25,585 bases of DNA from positions 1-25,585 of IMG/VR virus record IMGVR_UViG_3300032053_000463, one strand, 5' to 3'. Below the pieces are notes generated by a model that was not told where the DNA came from, searched no databases, and was given only the letters and a program-made list of their open reading frames with translations. Positions 1 to 25,585 of the stretch are shown piece after piece (the first letter of the stretch is position 1; every line of letters begins with the position of its first letter). This DNA is from a virus. Both the position numbers and the translations under genes were made by a program.

Positions 1-1458
1 GCCCTGACGGGGACATCCGCCCACAGCGCGGCGGTCGCAGCGACGGCGAGCAGCCTAGTGGTGAGGGATGCCGGCGGCGGCGGCTCGTTCAATTCGCTCA
101 CGGCCACGACAGTCACGATTCCCGGGCAGGTGTTCATCGGCACGGCGGCGACGAACTACTCTGATGGAGATTCCGGACCGGCTGACTCCCGAATGTACCT
201 GAGCAACTATACTACCGACGGTTCTACGTTGACCTTGGGGCTCCTTAACGAGGGAGGGGCCGTCATGTACGGCCACGCGGCGTCTAGTAATGGAGCCATT
301 GTATCCCTGCGATCCGACGGAGGGACGGCGGCGCATTACCTTTATGGAAATAGCGCGGGTGGTGGTGGCGGCAGTGTATGGGCGTGGGGTGGCCGCGGGA
401 CGGAGGCCGCGCCAGAAAACAACCAGCCCGGCAATAATCCTTTCCAAATACACACGAGGATCCGAGGCGCTGGGGCCTACAAGACGGTGGCGAGACAATA
501 CACCACAGTGGCTGGGCCTGAAGGGGAGTGCTTGAATAACGACTGCACAGGCATGTTCGATTTCCAGCTGAAGGATCAGGGGGGGACCGGCTTCTCCTCG
601 CGCATGACCGTGAGCACGGATGGCGTGAGGATACCCATCACGGGGGACGCTCACTACGCACTTGAGACGTCCTCCAGTATCAACGTGCTGGCGGGAGGCG
701 TGACTGCGCCACAGTTTTCTGGGGACGGTGCTAATTTGACCGGAATCCCTCAGTCTGCGGTGACGAACTTATCGGCGGACTTGACGGATATACGGAATAG
801 CACAGGCTCCATCTATTCCGACTTAAATAGTACAGCTTCCCTGCTCACGACTGAGATATCAAGAGCGATCGCCAGGGAGGACGGTATTGGGGTGTCGACA
901 GGGAATATAGTCCCTGAATTGTTGGCGACAACGAATACCTGGACGGCCCAGCAGACATTCCTGAATCAGGTCGAAATATCGTCGTCGCTCATTCTGAGCG
1001 GCGCTGTCGGGCCCACAGCATACTCGTTGATCACCTCTACGGGGATCAATATCGCCGCGGGCTGCATAAAGATGCTCGGCGGCGACGTTTGCGGGCCGGT
1101 TGCCGGTCCAGTGGGACCGACGGGTCCTACAGGTGGTACGGGTGGTACGGGTGGTACGGGTGGTACGGGCGCTACCGGTCCGACGGGTCCGACTGGACCT
1201 ACGGGCGGCACTGGTGATACAGGCGGCACAGGCGCTACCGGTCCGACGGGTCCGACAGGTCCGACGGGACCCACAGGTGGTACGGGGGCGACAGGTCCCA
1301 TGGGGCCTTGGACGGATCAGGGTTTGACGACTTTGCGCGCCGGAGTCCCGATCGGCGTCTACCGCTGCACGGACTGCACGCCGCCCTATAAGATGGCTAT
1401 CTCAACAGCAAACGCTGTCTACAGCGTGCTCGATGCCGTGGGGGTCGAGTTGCAGTGA
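1..1458 (+). CDS. Tail fibre protein with collagen-like stalk (5' end outside window)
   Basis: The reading frame is open from base 1, so the gene begins upstream of the window; a GTG at 58 is only an internal codon. The visible 485 residues start with a fibre-like segment ([16 protein letters not shown]) and a Gly-rich region. A beta-rich part follows with the phrase [13 protein letters not shown] near 930-970, which also occurs in the fibre at the other end of the window. Next come 22 uninterrupted G-X-Y triplets (1105-1302; GPT, GGT, GAT) and a short C-terminal head with a C-x2-C pair. Collagen-like GXT repeats are known to form trimeric stalks in phage fibres. The likely role is host adhesion at the tail tip. 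Gene order is odd, because it sits directly ahead of head genes. Fibre identity is firm; the receptor is unknown. Confidence 0.8.
1105..1302 (+). repeat. Collagen-like G-X-Y repeat, Thr-rich
   Basis: Twenty-two consecutive G-X-Y triplets lie in frame within the fibre gene. Y is almost always Thr and X is Pro, Gly, Ala or Asp. At the DNA level a 9-base unit (ggtggtacg) is nearly perfectly repeated around 1132-1168, so the tract can expand or contract by slippage without loss of frame. Confidence 0.9.
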
Positions 1459-2846: not shown

Positions 2847-2959
2847 GTGTGCGGGAAAGGGCGGGCATGTTCCGAATCTGGGAGCATGATATGCCTGATT
2901 TCAAAAATATTATCGCAGAATTCTTACGCAAAAAGGGCTGTTTAATGGCCGGTGTATAA
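2843..2959 (+). CDS. Hypothetical 38-aa ORF coupling the head genes
   Basis: It begins with ATG 2843 overlapping the TGA of the MuF-like gene (ATGA) and ends with TAA 2957-2959 overlapping the ATG of the large zinc-module gene (TAATG). The product contains MSVRERAGMFRIWEHDM and a short amphipathic helix; I recognise no domain. The double overlap would carry ribosomes from the MuF-like gene into the giant gene, so it may serve mainly for translational coupling. It may also be a chance ORF filling the gap. Confidence 0.4.
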   Translation: MSVRERAGMFRIWEHDMPDFKNIIAEFLRKKGCLMAGV

Positions 2960-5900
2960 TGAGCCCTCTATTTTTAGTCCGTGGGACGGCATCAAAAAGA
3001 CCTGCGCCTGAAATTCATGACCGCCTCGCCGTAATCTGCGACGAGTGCGGCGCCGAGGTCCCGGCCGACGCATTCTCCTGCCCGGAGTGCGGAAGGGTTG
3101 AGCTAGATGGTGAGCGGCAGCGGATTTACGGCGCCCCTGACAGCGGTGCACCGTCGAGCGGCTGCCCGGGCTGCGGCCACCCGCTATGGGACCATGGGGA
3201 GCGTGGATGCTTTCTCCCCGGGTGCGCATGCATGAAGTCGCCGACGGAGTTGCGCTGGATGGTGGAGGCGGGGCTGTGTCAGACCAAGGACAAACGGAAG
3301 GAGAACGCCATGAAGAACACCGCATCGCAGTCACGCATCACCTCCGTCCTTAATAAGACTCGGGCTGTCCAAGACCTCGATGCGGCCGCGTTGGGAGCGC
3401 GTGAGCGCCTTGCCGCGTACCTGACCACGGGCGAGTGGTATGCCCAGCTGGACAGTGATGTGGTGGATTTGGAGGAGATAGCTGGTGTTGTCATGGAGAA
3501 CCGCCCTGGCCGCGAGTGCCCCTCATGCGGCGGGCTCAACACGAAGAATCGCGGCGGGACGGACCCGCCCGGCTCTTTAGTCTGCACGGACTGCAACCGG
3601 ATTTTCTACGACACCGACAGCGGCTTCGCGCCGGGGTCGGCATCGGACAAGGCAGGCAGGTATATCTCTAACGGGTTGGAGCTGTGCGAGTCCTGCGGAG
3701 CCGAGATGCTCCCGCCCATCCAGCACGTCGACGGCGTGGTCAGCTCAGAGTGCCCGCAGTGCAGGAAGGCTAGGCGGGAGACGAAGAACGCCATCGAGAC
3801 CGATGTCTGCAAATGTGGTTGCCAGTACCGGGACCACGAGGATTTCAGCGGGCCATGCGTGAGCTGCCCTGACTGCAAGAAATTTGAGAAGCGGGAGCAT
3901 ATCAACGACCTCAATCCAAAATGCGCTGAATGCGGGCACGCCCAGGGCCAGCATGACGGCTTGCATGGGAAATGCTTTGCCAGCGAGCCTCCTCACGACG
4001 GCCCCTACTGCCCATGCAAGCACTTCGAGTATCCGCGCGGCGCGGCCTCCCAGGAAAACGTTGGTGCTGACGAAGGCTACGCCTGGCGCTGCCGGGAGTG
4101 CGGGCACAAGTTCGCGAGCGCGGCGGCCGCGGAGAAGGCGGTATCTGGCGACAGGGGCTGCCCTAAGTGCGGCGGGGTGGACGTTGACGAGAGCCTGCCG
4201 ATCAAGAACTCAGGCGGAGCAGATGCCGCTATAGCGGCTTTCGAGGCGCACTGTGAGGTCTGCAAGGACTGCAAGAAGGTGATGAATCTGGAGGATGGGA
4301 ATACGGAGCGGGACGCGAGCAAGCTATGTCCGGATGGGAAGGACTTGCTGCATAAGAAGGTCGAGAACGCCAGGGGGACGCCAGAGGTCGCCCGCGTCCA
4401 GGAAATCATGGCGGCCAAAAAGGCAGCAGAATCCTCCGTAGCGGCTGCTAGAGCGACAGGTGATAATGCGAAGATCGTGGAAGCTCTCAAGGCGCTGTCA
4501 GCCGCACAGCGAGCAGAGATCACGGCCTTCGGTGGTGACATAGCAAAGTTACCACAAGAGAATGCCATACTGCCCGAGGGGAAGACGCGCATGGGTCACT
4601 GTGATTATTGCGACGAAAAGGACTACGTTAAGACCACCAGGCTCCCCGGTCAGGGCGACGCCAATATCTGGCTTTGCGATAAGTGCCTGCGTGAAAGGAA
4701 TGCTGCGAATGCGAGCACCGTGCATGGCGGTATCAAAAAGAATGTAGGTGCTGCGGATGCTCAACGAGCATGGGAGACCGGTGGAAATGTAGTAAGAACA
4801 ACCATGCTCAGACTAGCTGGCTTTATGGAATCCTTAGCAACAAAAAAATGGTCCGAGCTTGAGCCGTGGATGCAGGACATGATGCAGGAACACGGGAAGG
4901 TCAACTCCAACGCCGGTGGAATCTGCTCCTCCTGCGGCGCAGCCGCGGTCAAGGAGTTGGGCCAGGTCGCCGGGATGCGGCACAGCAGGTGCGGCCAGTG
5001 CGGGATGGACCAGCACGAAGAAAAGAACGCTGGATCCGATATTTGCGCGACTTGCAGAAAAGAACGAAGTGTGCATCGAGATGATGGGAAGGACCCCGGG
5101 CCTGGAATCTGCAAGGATTTCATGTATTCTGATGTCAGCCCTTTTGTCGTCAAGAACGCCCTAGTTTGTGCTTCTTGCGGAAAGGGTAACAATATCCTCA
5201 AACGTGTTTTAGCGCAGGGGGTAATAGCATTGATGTGCGGGGCATGTGCAAAAGAAGACGGTGTAATTGATGAATGGCGCGCCGCCCCACAGGAGAATAG
5301 CAACGCCCTCGGCGTCTGCGCCGACTGCCTCCACGGGATGGGTGAGCACGACGAGATGGGGTGCATGAAGGACGGGTGCAGCTGCGCGGCGCTCGGTCTC
5401 GGGAAGAGGGAGATGAAGGCGGAGATGCTGACGAGCGGGGACCTCGCCAATGCCTCCCCGCTTCCCATCGTCCTCCACGGTGACGCCTACGAACTGGAGA
5501 TCATGGACTCCAGCCACGCGAAGATGCGCCTGTCTGGGACGGACAAGTGGGGCATCCTGCAGCACGTCGCGCAGCTGCCGCAGGGCGTGATGGCGCAGCT
5601 GGAGGCGATGGGCCGGGCGAACGGGAACTTCCTTAATGAAAACACGAATGATCGGACCCCCCGCGGAGGAATCACAGGATTCGTTGTAGTCAAATCCGAC
5701 GATGGAACATGGGATGTATACCAGCATGGGCCGAACCTGAGCCCATCTGGCGAGTTGGTCAAGTCGGGATTTCCCGCAGAGACTGCCGCGCGCGTTTGGG
5801 CGGCACAGAGGGGTGCTCTTGTAAACGCCTCCTGGTCCGAGGACATGGCCGGCGCGTACTCCGCCGGCCTGGCCGATGCCAAGGCGGGCCGGCCGCGTGA

Positions 5901-6993
5901 CAAGGCGAAGGCGGGAGGGTTCGACGCCGCGTACGAGCAGGGATACTCGCACGGCGAGAACAGGAACACCATCGACATGGCGAAGGCCGACGCGATGGCC
6001 AGGGTGATCTACGGCAAGGTGTACCGGGAACTGCCTGACGACGGCGTCGAGCAGGACTATGTTGCTGGACTCGTCTCGCAGGGGGTGAGGCCAGAGGAGA
6101 TGGCCAATGCGGGGCGTGTCGTTTGCGAAGTCTGCGGCGGGCGTCTGGCCCAGGTCAGGGCGTCGCTCCAGGGGGAGTCGGCACGCGGCGGAGAGAAGTC
6201 ACTATGCCAGGACTGCCTTGCCGAGGCGCACCGGGGGGGGCTGGTCTTGTCGGAAAAGCCGCTGGGCAACGCCGGGCAGGAATCCCTGGGGTTCCAGCAG
6301 GATGCGAGGACAACGACCGCGGGGGCGGCACATAAGGAAGAAATCAACGCAGAAAAGGAGTGGTGGTGCCTTACCTGCGGCAAGGGAATTACCGCCGCCG
6401 ATCGCGAGCCTGGTGGGAAGTGCGAGAAGCACCAGACGCACCTGGTGGAGGAGAATATCTCCCCTGAGTTCCAGGCCGAACTGAAGAAGGAGACCGCTGA
6501 GCACCCCGACCTGTCTCTCCAGGTGATCTGGCAGATCGCCTCTGATCACCTCAAGGAAAAGTTGAGGAGGATCCGGACGCCGGAGGCCATGGCGGCAAAG
6601 GGGTACAACAGCGCCGACGGCAAGCGGACGCAGGACCTAGCCTTCCTGTGCAAAGATTACCCCTACGGCACGAACGATAAGGAAGAGGCGCAGGCGCATA
6701 TGCGAGATACGAAGCACGCTATTGGGCCAAGACCGGAGAATACTAGTGATCGCGCCCACACGCCAATCGTCTCCGAGAAGCAGGCCGGCTTCTTCGGCGC
6801 CGAGCTTGGGCGGCTCCGGGCTGGCAAGGCTACGGAGAGCGGCATGTCCGAGGCGGAGCTGGTGCGTCACCTCAAGGAGTGGGGTGGTAACTCCAATACC
6901 GATGCACCCTTCCTCGCGGAAGACAAGGAAGCCGCTGGCAATGCGATTTACGGGTCGGAAGATAATGTGATGAGCAATGACGTCAGGGAATAA
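2959..6993 (+). CDS. Giant multi-zinc-module protein, predicted head-packaged polyprotein (1344 aa)
   Basis: Start ATG 2959 overlaps the preceding stop. The protein has 65 Cys, nearly all in CxxC-type modules. Ribbon-like pairs lie at residues 27-44, 187-212, 243-268, 378-404, 432-457, 548-576, 656-681, 696-718, 737-763, 1056-1086 and 1137-1155. Four C-x2-CGH...H...C...CxC modules lie at 69-91, 284-306, 322-353 and 787-809. Cys-free parts are 471-535 (helical), 585-651 (helical), 832-956 and 957-1050 (RMF-like). Asn-Ala joints occur at N116, 277, 470, 535, 581, 584, 651, 690, 733, 782, 831, 956, 1050, 1104, 1130 and 1329, often exactly bracketing one module. The next phage gene is the maturation protease. 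I infer a precursor cut inside the prohead. No enzymatic domain is recognised. It could instead be an uncut, linker-rich zinc protein. Confidence 0.75.
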   Translation: MSPLFLVRGTASKRPAPEIHDRLAVICDECGAEVPADAFSCPECGRVELDGERQRIYGAPDSGAPSSGCPGCGHPLWDHGERGCFLPGCACMKSPTELRWMVEAGLCQTKDKRKENAMKNTASQSRITSVLNKTRAVQDLDAAALGARERLAAYLTTGEWYAQLDSDVVDLEEIAGVVMENRPGRECPSCGGLNTKNRGGTDPPGSLVCTDCNRIFYDTDSGFAPGSASDKAGRYISNGLELCESCGAEMLPPIQHVDGVVSSECPQCRKARRETKNAIETDVCKCGCQYRDHEDFSGPCVSCPDCKKFEKREHINDLNPKCAECGHAQGQHDGLHGKCFASEPPHDGPYCPCKHFEYPRGAASQENVGADEGYAWRCRECGHKFASAAAAEKAVSGDRGCPKCGGVDVDESLPIKNSGGADAAIAAFEAHCEVCKDCKKVMNLEDGNTERDASKLCPDGKDLLHKKVENARGTPEVARVQEIMAAKKAAESSVAAARATGDNAKIVEALKALSAAQRAEITAFGGDIAKLPQENAILPEGKTRMGHCDYCDEKDYVKTTRLPGQGDANIWLCDKCLRERNAANASTVHGGIKKNVGAADAQRAWETGGNVVRTTMLRLAGFMESLATKKWSELEPWMQDMMQEHGKVNSNAGGICSSCGAAAVKELGQVAGMRHSRCGQCGMDQHEEKNAGSDICATCRKERSVHRDDGKDPGPGICKDFMYSDVSPFVVKNALVCASCGKGNNILKRVLAQGVIALMCGACAKEDGVIDEWRAAPQENSNALGVCADCLHGMGEHDEMGCMKDGCSCAALGLGKREMKAEMLTSGDLANASPLPIVLHGDAYELEIMDSSHAKMRLSGTDKWGILQHVAQLPQGVMAQLEAMGRANGNFLNENTNDRTPRGGITGFVVVKSDDGTWDVYQHGPNLSPSGELVKSGFPAETAARVWAAQRGALVNASWSEDMAGAYSAGLADAKAGRPRDKAKAGGFDAAYEQGYSHGENRNTIDMAKADAMARVIYGKVYRELPDDGVEQDYVAGLVSQGVRPEEMANAGRVVCEVCGGRLAQVRASLQGESARGGEKSLCQDCLAEAHRGGLVLSEKPLGNAGQESLGFQQDARTTTAGAAHKEEINAEKEWWCLTCGKGITAADREPGGKCEKHQTHLVEENISPEFQAELKKETAEHPDLSLQVIWQIASDHLKEKLRRIRTPEAMAAKGYNSADGKRTQDLAFLCKDYPYGTNDKEEAQAHMRDTKHAIGPRPENTSDRAHTPIVSEKQAGFFGAELGRLRAGKATESGMSEAELVRHLKEWGGNSNTDAPFLAEDKEAAGNAIYGSEDNVMSNDVRE
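3163..3231 (+). repeat. CGH zinc module, copy 1 of 4
   Basis: Residues 69-91 of the giant protein: C69-x2-C72-G-H74, H79, C84, C89-x-C91. The same spacing pattern (CxxCGH, a second His after about 4 residues, Cys, then CxC) recurs three more times in the protein. Confidence 0.6.
3808..3876 (+). repeat. CGH zinc module, copy 2 of 4 (variant)
   Basis: Residues 284-306: C284-x-C286-x-C288, H293, C300-x2-C303-x2-C306, followed by an aromatic (KKFEK). It directly follows the candidate cut K-N277|A278, with six residues in between. Confidence 0.5.
3922..4017 (+). repeat. CGH zinc module, copy 3 of 4 (long loop)
   Basis: Residues 322-353: C322-x2-C325-G-H327, H332, C339, then C351-x-C353-K-HF. The loop between C339 and C351 is longer than in copies 1 and 4. 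Confidence 0.55.
5317..5385 (+). repeat. CGH zinc module, copy 4 of 4
   Basis: Residues 787-809: C787-x2-C790-L-H792, H797, C802, C807-x-C809. It is enclosed by Asn-Ala joints at N782|A783 and N831|A832 and is therefore the only zinc module in its predicted fragment of 49 residues. Confidence 0.6.
5827..5967 (+). repeat. RMF-like module, copy in giant protein
   Basis: Residues 957-1003 start at an N|A joint and carry the pattern AY-x2-G-x2-DA-x-AGRP, then KAGGF-x-AAY-x2-GY-x-HGE-x-RN. A near-identical module lies in the scaffold part of the protease gene (8476-8625). The A...G...aGR....(20-25)....Y..GY..G layout resembles ribosome modulation factor (RMF), but the resemblance is by eye only. 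Confidence 0.5.
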
Positions 6994-6997
6994 GAGT

Positions 6998-7546
6998 ATG
7001 GCAGGAAAAACAAAGGAACAGAAAGCCCGAAATACTATAAAAACTCAAGAATGGCGTGCGGCTCATCGAGCGCGCGTTAATGCCTGGAGTAGAGAATACG
7101 CTAGGCAAAGACGTCGGAAATACCCGGAGCTACTTAGGGGGTACGCTAGAAAATGGAGACTCACGCACCTCAAGCAATCTCGAATAAACTCCCGAGACGA
7201 ACGTAGGAAGCGCCAAGAATTTCGTCCGTGGTTTGAACTACTGCGCAGTGCGAAGCGTAGAGCCGAACAAAAAGGAATGCAATTTCTCTTGACTGCAAAA
7301 TGGGCTCGGGATCGATGGGCTGGAAAGTGCGAGATATCAGAGGTGCCTTTTATTACCGTTGTTGCGAGCAAAAAAGCACGGGGTCCGTATGCACCTTCAC
7401 TAGATCGGATTGAGCCAGAGAGAGGCTACGTAGAAGATAATTGCCGATTTATTCTTTTTGGGATTAATTGTCTGAAGGGAAGCGGAACGGATGCGGACAT
7501 GAATAATATTGCTCAAGCAGTAGTTCATAAAAGGAGCATGCAATGA
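6998..7546 (+). CDS. HNH-type homing endonuclease (free-standing)
   Basis: Start ATG 6998 is preferred over 6977 because aggga at 6985-6989 is well placed and the gene would then follow the giant gene's stop directly. The 182-aa product has a very basic N-terminal half (repeated R/K and YARxxR units) suited to DNA binding. Its C-terminal half matches phage HNH-like nucleases: C111-x-I-S-x2-PF near 111-118, PSLDRI at 133-138, GYVEDNCRFI at 143-152 and N157. Local GC (about 45-53%) is below the flanking GC-rich head genes, and the gene splits two functionally linked genes, as mobile endonucleases do. Its TGA overlaps the ATG of the protease gene. The specific cut site is unknown. Confidence 0.75.
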   Translation: MAGKTKEQKARNTIKTQEWRAAHRARVNAWSREYARQRRRKYPELLRGYARKWRLTHLKQSRINSRDERRKRQEFRPWFELLRSAKRRAEQKGMQFLLTAKWARDRWAGKCEISEVPFITVVASKKARGPYAPSLDRIEPERGYVEDNCRFILFGINCLKGSGTDADMNNIAQAVVHKRSMQ

Positions 7547-9501
7547 CTTCTGCGTATTGTTCGCAATGTCGAAAAGAGAAATGCGGGGCTTGCCGCCTAA
7601 CTCCTGTCCTGAAGAATTCACCGTATAAAGACAAAATTCTCGTAGAGCTCCAGAATGATGCGTGGACCGGGGTTTCCATTTCAGAATGGCCGAGGCTCTT
7701 CACCGGGAAGCATCTAGAGCCTGGAACTGTCTGCTACGATCAGCCTGATGGGACCAAAAAGACGTACCTGCTTACCAGAGAAGCTATCGCCCAGATGCGC
7801 CCATCCATTGAGGGGAAGCCGATCGTGGGTGCGGCGGGAAATTTTGACCATAAGAATGTAGCCCCATCCGATTTCGAGGATGGAGTGGTAGACGGGATAG
7901 TCGTAGAGGGCTTTGATTGTGGCGATGGTTGGGACGGCATCAAATTCATGGTATGGGATCCGGAGACCAAGAAGAGGTGCATCGGGGGCGAGTACCAATT
8001 ATCCTGCGCGTACGTACCCCTGGATGTCTTGGAGGAACCGGGGCTCTGGCACAATATACCTTACGACGCTGTAATAAAATCTGGCGAATATACTCACGTG
8101 GCGGTTGTGAATAACCCAAGATATGCTGGAGCTGTGATCGAGTTGGCCAATTCACTTAAAGGGGGCATGAAAACCGTGAACAAGGTACTGAAGGCACTGT
8201 TGCACCAGACGGTCGGGCTGGCAGTTTTGAAGGAAATCACAAACTCCATCGAAGCGGATGAGGTGAAGGCCGCCGAGGCGAAGAAGAACGCCGAGGACAA
8301 GGCCAAGCTGGAAGCCGCCGAGAAGAAGAACGCCGAGATCGACGTTGCCGCGCTCGCCGACCTGAAGAAGCAGATTTTGGCGACCGAGAACAAGGACGAG
8401 CTCCTGAAGCTCCAGGCGAACGCCGACGAGATCGAGATGCGCATGTCCAAGCGGAACGCCGCGGTTGAGGTTCTGGGGGCGATTGACGCGGCTGATCTGG
8501 CCGGCGCGCGTGCATATGCAGATGGTGTGGAGGATGCTAGGGCGGGCAGGCCGCAGAACAGGATGAAGGCTGGTGGGTTCGTTGCCGCGTATCTTCGGGG
8601 CTACTTGCACGGCGAGAGCAGGAACGCCATGGTCGCGGATGCGGGGAAGGATGCGACGGAGATCGACGTCGCCCGCCTGAAGGAGCTGCGGTCGGCCATC
8701 GCGGAGAGCAAGGATGAGAAGGCGAAGGAATCCATGAACGCCGAGGCCTCTGCGCTGGAGGAGAAGCTCGCGAAGAAGAACGCCGCCCCTCCGGACCCAG
8801 CCGTCAGCGGCTCCGCCATCCTCAACGAGGAGCGCCAGCCCGACACCGGGACCGAGGCCGCCTCGCCGGAGGGCAAGGCCCGCGCCGCGAGGAACGCCGA
8901 TCCGGACGCCAGGTCCAAGTACGAGGACGCGATCTTCAAGCTGGCCGAGGCGTACAAGGCAGACGGTGACCGCGTGAAGTACGACACGGGGTGCCGCGAG
9001 GCCCTCGACGTCCTCCTGGCCGCCCGCAAGCCGGCGCAGAACGACGGGAACGTCCCGCCGTCCAAGCCGGAGCCCGGGGCGCCGTCACTCGTGGCCGCGA
9101 ATGCATCACTCTCCCAAAAGAACGCCGAGCCGGATTCCAGGGACAGGGCCAAATACGAGGACGCGCTCTCCAAGCTGGCCGCGGCGTACAAGATCGACGG
9201 GGATCGCGTGAAGTACGACACGGAGCGCCGCGAGGCGTTTGACGCTTTCCTGGCCGCCGGCAGGCTAAAGAACGCCGAGGATGAAGAGCAGGCGAGGCTG
9301 AAAAAAGAGAACGCGCGGCTACAGGAGAAGCTGAATTCCCTGGTGCGCATACGTGCCAGCGAGGACGCCCGCCGCAAGCAGTATTTCGAGGATCTCAGGA
9401 ACACCGCCGAGCGCAGGAGAGAGCCCGTCGGCTCGCCTTCGGTCGGTGTCGCAACGCCGGATGACAAGCAGGATCTCGGACGGGCGCGCTACGGCTCATG
9501 A
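7543..9501 (+). CDS. Prohead maturation protease (DUF2213-like) fused to long scaffold
   Basis: This 652-aa protein has three parts. Residues 1-25 hold two CxxC pairs (C6/C9, C14/C17) and end in LKN25|S26. Residues about 26-205 look like a DUF2213-type phage protease, with likely catalytic residues H103 (FDHK), S154 (QLSCAY) and H185 (YTHVAVV). The family is thought to share the herpesvirus assemblin-like fold. Residues about 210-652 are Lys/Glu/Ala-rich coiled coil, typical of a capsid scaffold. Asn-Ala occurs at N249, 263, 293, 305, 361, 399, 413, 451, 520, 527, 577 and 590, mostly after K or R. I infer that the protease degrades its own scaffold there. Start ATG 7543 overlaps the HNH stop. 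The fused protease-scaffold layout is well known in phages; the cut motif is my inference. Confidence 0.8.
   Translation: MTSAYCSQCRKEKCGACRLTPVLKNSPYKDKILVELQNDAWTGVSISEWPRLFTGKHLEPGTVCYDQPDGTKKTYLLTREAIAQMRPSIEGKPIVGAAGNFDHKNVAPSDFEDGVVDGIVVEGFDCGDGWDGIKFMVWDPETKKRCIGGEYQLSCAYVPLDVLEEPGLWHNIPYDAVIKSGEYTHVAVVNNPRYAGAVIELANSLKGGMKTVNKVLKALLHQTVGLAVLKEITNSIEADEVKAAEAKKNAEDKAKLEAAEKKNAEIDVAALADLKKQILATENKDELLKLQANADEIEMRMSKRNAAVEVLGAIDAADLAGARAYADGVEDARAGRPQNRMKAGGFVAAYLRGYLHGESRNAMVADAGKDATEIDVARLKELRSAIAESKDEKAKESMNAEASALEEKLAKKNAAPPDPAVSGSAILNEERQPDTGTEAASPEGKARAARNADPDARSKYEDAIFKLAEAYKADGDRVKYDTGCREALDVLLAARKPAQNDGNVPPSKPEPGAPSLVAANASLSQKNAEPDSRDRAKYEDALSKLAAAYKIDGDRVKYDTERREAFDAFLAAGRLKNAEDEEQARLKKENARLQEKLNSLVRIRASEDARRKQYFEDLRNTAERRREPVGSPSVGVATPDDKQDLGRARYGS
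8335..8460 (+). repeat. Scaffold repeat B, copy 1
   Basis: Residues 265-306 begin EIDVAALADLK and end KRNA. They align to residues 373-414 with two small indels, and the internal N-A (293/294 versus 399/400) and terminal N-A (305/306 versus 413/414) positions are retained. Confidence 0.6.
8476..8625 (+). repeat. RMF-like module, copy in protease-scaffold
   Basis: Residues 312-361 contain AYADGVEDARAGRP, KAGGFVAAYLRGYLHGE and end at R-N361|A362. The module is co-linear with residues 957-1003 of the giant protein. It interrupts an otherwise repetitive coiled-coil scaffold and sits between two candidate cut sites (N305 and N361). Confidence 0.55.
8659..8784 (+). repeat. Scaffold repeat B, copy 2
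   Basis: Residues 373-414 begin EIDVARLKELR and end KKNA. This is a second, diverged copy of the unit at 8335-8460. Confidence 0.6.
8893..9030 (+). repeat. Scaffold repeat A, copy 1
   Basis: Residues 451-496 start at R-N451|A452 and contain KYEDAIFKLAEAYK and DGDRVKYDT. Counting from KYEDA, 27 of 36 positions match copy 2. Confidence 0.8.
9121..9276 (+). repeat. Scaffold repeat A, copy 2
   Basis: Residues 527-578 start at K-N527|A528, contain KYEDALSKLAAAYK and DGDRVKYDT, and end at K-N577|A578. The duplicated unit is therefore bounded by candidate cut sites at both ends. Confidence 0.8.
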
Positions 9502-10084: not shown

Positions 10085-11209
10085 ATGAGACACAACGAAC
10101 TGCTTAACTCCCTGCGCAAGGGAGACCCGAAGACCCTCCAGAAGTACGAGGGGCACCCGGAATTGCTGAACCAGCTTCTCGCGATCGCCGCGAACCCGAT
10201 CCCGTGGAAGCCCGGCCTGGACCGTGAGCTGAAGAACGCCAACGGCGCGATCGACCAGAGCGCGCTGGGATTCCAGTACACGATCCAGACCACGACGCTG
10301 ATCGCGGCCGAGGTCGTGACGCAGAAGTTCTACGAGGAGCCGATCGCCGACTTCGCGGACGTCCTCGTGGGCCGCGGGCCGTGGATGGAGGATATTAAGA
10401 CGAACCTGACGTTCGACGCGGCGGGTCCGTTCGAGCAGGGCATCCAGAACCTGGCGACCAGGAGCGAGATCGCGAACGTCGAAGTCAGCATGAGCCCGAT
10501 CACCGCCAAGATCGCGACATGGGCGAAGGGCTACACGTACAGCGTGCCCGAGGTGCAGAAGGCGCTGGCGAGCAACAACTGGGACATCGTGGCGAGCAAG
10601 TACAAAGCGCTCGTCAAGAACTGGCAGCTCGGCATCCAGTCGGTCGGCTTCCTGGGGCGCATCAGCGACCTGGCGAACTACCCCGGCCTGCTGACGAACC
10701 AGGCGGTGAACGTGAACACCACGTTCATCACCGGACCGCTGGCGGACATGTCCGCCGCGAACTTCTCACTGTTCGTGTCGGGCATCCTCCAGCTGTACCT
10801 GACGAACTGCAACGAGGTCCGCTACCCGAATCGGTTCGTGATGCCCCGGTCGGACCAAGTCGGAATGACGGCGCCGTTCAGCTCCACCTACCCGATGATC
10901 TCCAAGCTGGAGTACTTGAAGAAGGCGTTCCAGGCCGTCTGCGGCGAGGATTTCAAAATCCTGGCCACGGCGTACGGGAACAAGGCGCGCAACGCCGGCT
11001 ACCACGCGGTCGCCGGGACGAATCGCTACGCGCTCTACAACGCTGACAAGGAGACGATCCACATGGACATTCCGGTGGACCTCTTCCTGAATGCCCCCGC
11101 CACTGGGAACAACTTCAACTGGCAGGGCGTCGGCGTCGGAGCGTTCACCGGCATGATTGCGTACAGAGTCCCGGAGGTGCTCTACTTCGACGACGCCGCA
11201 AGCCTCTAA
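10085..11209 (+). CDS. Major capsid protein, predicted N-terminal processing
   Basis: The 374-aa protein lies directly after the scaffold-protease and decoration genes and has the size and composition of an HK97-fold major capsid protein. The first ~50 residues are helical and charged, like a delta/pro-domain, and end at ELKN51|A52NGAIDQ, the same K-N-A motif as in the scaffold. Cleavage there would leave a 323-aa mature subunit. The body includes WMEDIKTNLTF, a likely E-loop/N-arm region, and long mixed alpha/beta segments. A 26-base perfect hairpin follows the gene and may set its mRNA level. Capsid identity rests on context, size and the pro-region rather than on a unique motif. Confidence 0.8.
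   Translation: MRHNELLNSLRKGDPKTLQKYEGHPELLNQLLAIAANPIPWKPGLDRELKNANGAIDQSALGFQYTIQTTTLIAAEVVTQKFYEEPIADFADVLVGRGPWMEDIKTNLTFDAAGPFEQGIQNLATRSEIANVEVSMSPITAKIATWAKGYTYSVPEVQKALASNNWDIVASKYKALVKNWQLGIQSVGFLGRISDLANYPGLLTNQAVNVNTTFITGPLADMSAANFSLFVSGILQLYLTNCNEVRYPNRFVMPRSDQVGMTAPFSSTYPMISKLEYLKKAFQAVCGEDFKILATAYGNKARNAGYHAVAGTNRYALYNADKETIHMDIPVDLFLNAPATGNNFNWQGVGVGAFTGMIAYRVPEVLYFDDAASL
10235..10240 (+). other. Predicted capsid maturation cleavage site (N51|A52)
   Basis: The codons aac gcc encode N51-A52 within ELKNANGAI. The motif equals the K-N-A repeated through the scaffold and the giant zinc-module protein, and its position fits removal of a short N-terminal pro-domain. Confidence 0.5.
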
Positions 11210-23620: not shown

Positions 23621-25585
23621 ATGCTAAAGATAATTTTGATTTTGCTTACGCAAATCTGCCACGGTGGTCCCATCCCGCCCGCTCCGACCAGTGGGATTAA
23701 CAACTCCGCCGCTCCGCAGAACGCGGTATTCAACGTAGGGTCTGGTACCATCCGCGGCTTGCTCTCCGTCAGCACGGTCGCCGTGACGTGGTTGAACGCC
23801 GGAAATTTCTCAGCGAGCGCCCTGTCGGGAAATGGGTCTGGGATGACGAACCTCGATGCCTCGCAGCTCCTGATCGGCACGGTTCCTGCCGGGCGGATGA
23901 TCGGGATATACTCCGGCCTAACCGGCGTCGGCGTCCTCAGTACCGGGACATGGCATGGCCTACCTGTCGGGACGCAGTACGGCGGGACGGGGCAGAACTG
24001 GTCCGCCGTTCCCGCCGGGTATATGCCGGTCTTCACGGGAGCGGGCACCCTCGGCACGCTGGCCCCTGGGCCGGCGACCTACCTGCTCCAGAGCACAGGG
24101 GCGGGCTTCGTATGGGTGTCCTCACCCGCGTTGATCGGCGCGAACTTTATCGACATCCCGCTAACCGCACTCCTGCCAGGGACGCTCCCGGCCGCCATCG
24201 CCGTTGACGACGTGTCCCTGTCGACCGTCTCAGCGGCCAAGGTGTACGGCGACATCGCGGGGAAGGCATCGGCACTGACCGCGCTCCTCCCCATAGACAG
24301 GCTCGCGGCCGGCCAGCTTCCTACCACCATCCCGGCATCCTCGATCACCGTGACCGGCGTTGCTCCCGGCACCTACGGATGGTCCACTAGGTCCGTGCAG
24401 CTAACGGTGGGGACTGACGGCCGCATCACCTCGATTCAGCAGTACAGCATCCCGACGATCCTGCCCTCCACTGTCGCGTACTGGACCTCGTCGAACACGT
24501 GGACGGCGCAGCAGACTTTCCAGAACCAGATATCGCTGTCGACGGACGTGTACTTTAGCGCCGGCCAGATCAACTTGCTGGGCAACCGCGTGACTACGGT
24601 ATCCGGTAAGCTCGACGCAGCGCACCTAGCCAACGCGGTGCCATCTGGGAGCATATCCGGGAGCTACACGAACTTGACCGGCGTAGGGATACTCTCCACT
24701 GGAACGTGGCGCGCGTCCGCCGTCGCCACGCAATACGGCGGTACCGGGCAGAATTGGGAAAGCGCCACGCAGGGAAGCGTCCCGCACTTTAGCAGCACCG
24801 GGGTATTGAGTGCATTGCCTCCGGGGACCGCCGGCTATGTCCTGCAGACCAACGGGGCATACGCGGACCCCACCTGGGTTCCGCAGGAAGCCGTTCCAAT
24901 CCCGTATGCCTCTACCAGCACCTGGACTGCGCAGCAGACGTTCCTGAACCAGGTGTCTTTCTCTACGGACATGTATTTCAGCGCCGGACAGATCAACGCG
25001 CTCGGCAACCGGCTAACCACGGCCACCGGGAAACTTGATGCGACGCAACTGGCTGGCGCTGTGCCGTCTGGCAGCATCAGCGGGAATTATGCGAACCTGA
25101 CGGGGGCGGGGGTCTTGTCTACGGGGACATGGAACGGGATCGTAATCGGCACGCAGTACGGCGGAACCGGCAAAAACTGGTCCGGCGTGAATAAGGGCGA
25201 GATCCCGTACTTCAGCGCAGCAGGAACCTTGGGCACGCTGCCTCCTGGTCCGGCCGGCTTCGTCCTGCAGACGAACGACGACGGCAACGCCCCGTCGTGG
25301 ACACCGGCCGCGAATACGACCGTGCTATCCTCAACGAACACATGGACGGCGCGGCAGACGTTCCTGAACCCGATCACCATATCAACAAGCGCCATGGTAT
25401 CCGGTGGGTTAGGCGTCAACGGTTATTTTATAAATAGGGGGAGCGCAGTAGTATCCGGTAATTCTTCTGCCAACCCAATAGTTTTCCGAGTGGATCCCTC
25501 ATCGTCAAATGCGTATGGGCTGCTCATCAGTTCTTTTGGAAGCGTGAGCGTAGGCGCATTGAACCCTGGAAGGGAGGCTCACTTC
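23621..25585 (+). CDS. Long repeat-rich tail fibre (3' end outside window)
   Basis: The frame is open from ATG 23621 to the last base (655 codons), so the gene continues beyond the window. The N-terminus (MLKIILILLTQICHG) is hydrophobic and looks like a signal peptide, which is unusual for a fibre. The body is made of about 140-residue units containing [55 protein letters not shown] and LQTN. Full units start near 24497 and 24920, with a third beginning near 25340, and a partial diverged unit occupies the N-terminal third. It is most likely a long trimeric fibre for host recognition. It may belong to the same gene as the fibre at the window start. Confidence 0.75.
   Translation, partial: MLKIILILLTQICHGGPIPPAPTSGINNSAAPQNAVFNVGSGTIRGLLSVSTVAVTWLNAGNFSASALSGNGSGMTNLDASQLLIGTVPAGRMIGIYSGLTGVGVLSTGTWHGLPVGTQYGGTGQNWSAVPAGYMPVFTGAGTLGTLAPGPATYLLQSTGAGFVWVSSPALIGANFIDIPLTALLPGTLPAAIAVDDVSLSTVSAAKVYGDIAGKASALTALLPIDRLAAGQLPTTIPASSITVTGVAPGTYGWSTRSVQLTVGTDGRITSIQQYSIPTILPSTVAYWTSSNTWTAQQTFQNQISLSTDVYFSAGQINLLGNRVTTVSGKLDAAHLANAVPSGSISGSYTNLTGVGILSTGTWRASAVATQYGGTGQNWESATQGSVPHFSSTGVLSALPPGTAGYVLQTNGAYADPTWVPQEAVPIPYASTSTWTAQQTFLNQVSFSTDMYFSAGQINALGNRLTTATGKLDATQLAGAVPSGSISGNYANLTGAGVLSTGTWNGIVIGTQYGGTGKNWSGVNKGEIPYFSAAGTLGTLPPGPAGFVLQTNDDGNAPSWTPAANTTVLSSTNTWTARQTFLNPITISTSAMVSGGLGVNGYFINRGSAVVSGNSSANPIVFRVDPSSSNAYGLLISSFGSVSVGALNPGREAHF
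24497..25345 (+). repeat. 140-codon fibre repeat (two full units, third begins)
   Basis: TWTAQQTF / TWTARQTF begins at 24497, 24920 and 25340, spacings of 423 and 420 bases. Each unit carries the ordered phrases STD.YFSAGQIN, LGNR, KLDA, VPSGSISG, LSTGTW, TQYGGTG and LQTN. Units differ mainly in the segment after LSTGTW. Confidence 0.8.

Follow-up and report, generated by a model that had tools for sequence, protein, structure and literature searches.

An Asn residue followed by Ala, Ser, or Thr is, in our judgment, likely to be the cutting signal of a phage prohead protease fused to its own scaffold. The enzyme, predicted to be assemblin-like, would cut between the Asn and the small residue, and both the scaffold and a giant protein encoded upstream would evolve by duplicating and shuffling cassettes that can be cut in this way. 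The genes lie in a 25.6-kb window (the whole stretch of DNA analyzed, 25,585 nucleotides of a virus record), which carries head and contractile-tail genes. On this reading, the head proteases of an entire clade of phages, most of them uncultivated, are predicted to have a new specificity with Asn at P1, and exact sites are predicted for it. The reading also shows how a scaffold that is discarded could gain length by duplication yet stay removable, and it connects giant multi-domain phage proteins with the maturation of the capsid, so that their splitting into working parts becomes directly testable. No Asn-specific prohead protease was reported in the open-licence literature that we searched, and one may exist elsewhere.

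The Protease-Scaffold Fusion and Its Surroundings

The gene for the giant, a zinc-ribbon protein, lies upstream of the protease-scaffold gene, and a 157-amino-acid protein followed by the major capsid protein (MCP) is encoded downstream.

2959..6993, plus strand: giant zinc-ribbon protein, 1,344 amino acids
7543..9501, plus strand: protease/scaffold fusion, 652 amino acids (DUF2213 prohead protease, residues ~50–203; scaffold, residues ~204–652, about 450 amino acids)
7690..8148, plus strand: folded protease domain, recognized by pLDDT and by invariant His103, Ser154, and His185
10085..11209, plus strand: major capsid protein, PF09950 (E = 1.8e-21), with an N-terminal prodomain

The 652-amino-acid protein scores 25.2 bits against the PF09979 (DUF2213) profile (cut-off 22) and matches PHROG 530 (head maturation protease) with an E value of 3e-11. 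Throughout 18 aligned homologues, the columns of His103, Ser154, and His185 are unchanged. An assemblin/gp21-like fold is predicted for the DUF2213 protease domain: the model, in which pLDDT exceeds 90 over most of residues 51–200 and collapses at 203, matches the VZV protease (Z = 9.9 over 104 residues) and T4 gp21 (Z = 9.6 over 123 residues). By Foldseek alone, the protease model had no match at E ≤ 0.001, and the Foldseek matches to MlaD-type proteins were taken as chance.

An HNH/endonuclease-VII-like ORF (6977–7546) overlaps both the end of the giant's gene and the start of the protease gene. It is probably an inserted free-standing homing endonuclease, because it is absent from the corresponding junction in the relative L019, where 3 bases separate the two genes. 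Tail-fibre-like proteins with WTAQQTF repeats are encoded at both ends of the window (1–1458 and 23621–25585), one of the two with a collagen-like GPTGPTG run.

Enrichment of Asn before Small Residues

No dipeptide is more enriched than N-A in the scaffold half of the fusion (12 against 4.0 expected, P about 2e-4), and the protease half has no N-A; it also ranks first among the dipeptides of the giant, where 17 are found against 6.4 expected. A protein-pattern scan in which viral contigs were searched with the protease-scaffold found no relative, and relatives were gathered instead by way of the MCP sequence. Across 49 non-redundant protease-scaffolds, Asn stands before Ala 204 times against 73 expected and before Ser 126 times against 40, and it alone of the 20 residues is strongly enriched before both. 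When 1,687 plus-strand ORFs were ranked by N-A enrichment without prejudice, protease-scaffolds and giants took most of the top places. The scaffold of Bdellovibrio phage phi1422 also has the pattern. Among DUF2213 phages outside the group, it is absent from the scaffolds of phiEt88, ZF40, and PB1, and Aaphi23 has four N-A against 1.6 expected over the whole protein, part of them outside the scaffold.

Conserved Single-Copy Sites

Predicted sites lie at the protease/scaffold junction, near the scaffold C-terminus, and in the MCP.

8149..8154, plus strand: N203|S204, where protease and scaffold meet; self-release site predicted from conservation
9400..9405, plus strand: predicted C-terminal scaffold site N620-T, preceding the conserved C-terminal tag that ends RYGS
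10235..10240, plus strand: predicted MCP maturation site N51|A52, in the linker that joins the prodomain to the core

N203 is present in 18 of 18 homologues and S204 in at least 90% of them, and the position coincides with the end of the predicted protease fold. An N-[AST] lies within 45 residues of the NPRY motif in 48 of 49 non-redundant homologues (shuffled mean 21.5, maximum 30). At the scaffold C-terminus (9400–9501), the tag G..RYG is kept family-wide; this tag is probably the capsid-binding end.

All 55 non-redundant MCPs have Asn just before the core, in nearly every case at one of two fixed places according to clade; the conserved Glu of a T4-type P1 position is not found there. The dipeptide is N-[AST] in 51 of the 55, and in the remaining four, phi1422 among them, Asn is followed by Asp or Val. 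The model of the window MCP consists of a helical prodomain, a disordered linker that holds the site (pLDDT below 50 at residues 40–51 and 54–61), and the core. Since Asn is constant and what follows it varies among small residues, we infer that Asn occupies P1. The single-copy sites at the junction and in the MCP are the strongest reason to regard N-[AST] as a cut signal.

The nearest solved MCP by sequence, 8hdt (Pam3), was discarded as a guide to the site, the alignment beginning past it and hence being uninformative. In PB1/E217, MCP residues 1–65 are unseen by cryo-EM (PMC10329688); this stretch holds no N-A, so PB1/E217 was rejected as a case of the same specificity. The first 30 residues of the XM1 MCP are missing, and no Asn site was found in papers on 7-7-1, P1, and Felix O1.

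Other Explanations of the Signal

Many scaffold units, rich in Lys, Glu, and Ala, presumably form helices, and N-A marks their edges; the dipeptide might therefore be structural punctuation only, capping or breaking helices in a charged, rod-like scaffold that undergoes no proteolysis. We regard this as very unlikely. Before Ala, the other residues common in helix caps show no enrichment (Asp 79/87, Ser 42/65, Thr 26/40), N-[A/S] also recurs in a Pro-rich array of the relative L021, and the N-[AST] signal is invariant in the predicted-disordered linkers beside the protease and the MCP core. Still less credible, to the point of being negligible, is the idea that the enrichment is a side effect of DNA repeats or codon bias, with the word AACGCC copied around. 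This word does encode 10 of the 12 N-A pairs in the window scaffold, all in frame, but across the family N-A and N-S are encoded by twenty different codon pairs, all synonymous codons being in use in the 49 scaffolds, and N-S is as enriched as N-A. Nor can the copying of a DNA word yield the conserved single-copy sites of the MCP and the junction. We rejected this origin on the codon diversity and consider it largely refuted.

The exact bond is a separate matter. Herpesvirus assemblin cuts between Ala and Ser, and at some herpesvirus cleavage sites Asn precedes the Ala; the resemblance of our protease model to the herpesvirus proteases could accordingly be taken to favor a cut after Ala (Asn-Ala|X), with Asn at P2. 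Against this, it is Asn that is fixed, whereas the following residue may be Ala, Ser, or Thr and rarely Asp or Val; a variable small residue fits P1' beside Asn at P1, in the manner of the T4 and SPN3US sites, where a small residue comes after Glu. A cut after Ala thus seems improbable to us.

A Model for Maturation

If the protease cuts after Asn, as we favor, the MCP would assemble around a protease-scaffold core, and after prohead assembly the protease would cut wherever Ala, Ser, or Thr follows Asn. One cut, at the junction, would set the protease free from its scaffold, another would precede the C-terminal tag, and a third would take off the MCP prodomain at its end; numerous cuts within the scaffold would shred it to peptides of approximately 10–70 amino acids, able to leave or stay. 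Because each cassette brings its own cut site, the scaffold would be free to lengthen or shorten by cassette duplication and swapping while its removability was kept.

The herpesvirus maturational protease, a serine protease with a His-Ser-His triad, is fused to a scaffold; a cut where the two join releases it, and a second cut, farther along the chain, serves maturation. The window protein is like it in the fusion of protease to scaffold, in its predicted His-Ser-His triad and pattern of sites, and in the predicted fold; the window family differs in its Asn-[Ala/Ser/Thr] signal, in the number of predicted sites, roughly twelve or more in each scaffold, and in its duplicated cassettes. In the T4 gp21/gp22/gp23 system and with SPN3US gp245, cleavage by the protease following a short motif ending in Glu shreds the core proteins and trims the propeptides of the MCP (PMC5694885, PMC10052503). 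The likeness there is a short motif with a fixed P1 residue, whereas the residue is Glu in those phages and Asn here, and the scaffold here is fused to the protease. The DUF2213/PF09950 module of Bdellovibrio phage phi1422 has the same gene order, an N-A-rich scaffold, and N-S after the protease, but its scaffold is shorter, its MCP site is N-D, in the sequence RLCN|DLGFEID, and nothing in it matches the giant.

Duplicated Units in the Scaffold

8335..8460, plus strand: unit B copy 1, residues 265–306, N-A at residues 293 and 305
8659..8784, plus strand: unit B copy 2, residues 373–414, N-A at residues 399 and 413
8893..9024, plus strand: unit A copy 1, residues 451–494, N-A at its start
9121..9258, plus strand: unit A copy 2, residues 527–572, N-A at its start and K-N-A after it at residue 577

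A sequence-only reading of this DNA had proposed that the scaffold half contains two different duplications, and both stand up to shuffling: the copies of unit A align at 24 SD and those of unit B at 8.6 SD above shuffled sequences. The unit A copies are identical at 32 of 44 residues, with a 2-residue indel (the earlier count of 27 of 36 was a fair approximation), and at 84% of DNA positions. Identity drops to 45% in the 60 nucleotides preceding the N-A codons and is 42% just past the unit. The drop before the N-A codons places the left edge of the repeat exactly at N-A in both copies, in agreement with the proposal that each copy starts with N-A. The broader claim that the units are bounded by N-A holds for this left edge and for the right edge of copy 2 (K-N-A, residue 577); it fails at the right edge of copy 1, which is N-D (residue 500).

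Unit B does keep its internal and terminal N-A despite indels, which compensate for each other: copy 1 has its internal N-A at offset 28 and copy 2 at offset 26, and the terminal one is at offset 40 in both copies. With both A copies removed from the scaffold, the best self-match still exceeds 1,000 of 1,000 shuffles. Unit B is a genuine duplication, made earlier than that of unit A.

Tandem arrays occur in the scaffolds of relatives. Units of 12–17 amino acids, several of them mutually unrelated in sequence, have at least one N-[A/S] each in L033 (14 amino acids × 5.6), L020 (13 × 3.2), L025 (15 × 4.5), and L021 (12 × 4.5, Pro-rich, with NA and NS alternating), and in further arrays of L007, L022, L023, L042, and L044/46/50; the arrays in L094, L100, L061, and L035 have no site per unit. 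The only unit A of L019 ends in KPAANA, the corresponding residues of window copy A1 being KPAQND, and L021 has one unit-B homologue, lacking N-A at the matching places. The expectation that homologues would vary in unit number while retaining N-A is therefore largely borne out, the unit-B homologue of L021 and the four siteless arrays being exceptions. Growth of the scaffold by duplication of cleavable cassettes, with the cut site a prediction, is partly supported: the homologue arrays and the single unit A of L019 speak for it, and the same exceptions, together with the N-D end of copy A1, speak against it.

The Giant Protein and Shared Cassettes

5824..5967, plus strand: cassette C counterpart in the giant, residues 956–1003, bounded by N-A and N-T
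8455..8625, plus strand: cassette C in the scaffold, residues 305–361, N-A at both ends, common to the giant

The giant contains 29 N-[AST] against 11.4 expected, and cutting at these is predicted to give about 30 fragments with a median of 45 amino acids. Its zinc-ribbon spans avoid the signal (one inside against 6.6 expected). Cassette C is 56% identical between scaffold and giant (23.8 SD). When the giants of the window, L019, and L021 and the scaffolds of the window and L025 were compared, 24 of 52 shared-block ends fell within 3 residues of an N-[AST], against 7.7 expected and at most 19 in 2,000 random placements, a result whose P value is somewhat optimistic because a local alignment is apt to stop at a match. 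The order of blocks differs between the giants of the window and L019. The suggestion that the giant grew in the same way as the scaffold gains in part from the shared cassette, with its N-A and N-T bounds, and from reordered blocks with ends at Asn sites in related giants.

Zinc ribbons, weakly matched, are the only domains recognized in the window giant; InPase (PF18823), absent from it, occurs in the giants of relatives or their neighbours (L019:2949-7724, L021:2-3964, and the L025 record). No named phage matched the window giant. Polyvalent proteins are giant multi-domain phage proteins that are predicted to be packaged and for which processing into units has been proposed (Iyer et al. 2017, PMC5512222). 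Because the giants of relatives carry InPase, a domain of such proteins, the giant may be cargo packaged in the prohead. It differs from the polyvalent proteins in having zinc ribbons and no InPase, and the enzyme processing it would be the prohead protease, acting in trans at Asn sites, instead of an embedded metallopeptidase. More tentatively, the giant could be a polyprotein. On this view, it would be packed in the prohead and split there by the protease, at as many as 29 Asn sites, to yield about 30 small domains, zinc ribbons and others, which would be injected along with the DNA; scaffold and cargo would then draw on a common stock of exchangeable cassettes that have one cut signal at their ends.

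A module, YVSRFM.S.EA..DYPD.KQRLAVAYSMYRER, is common to giants and to the N-termini of the protease ORFs of other relatives; it lies at L025:7991-8095 and at residues 253–301 of the L019 giant.
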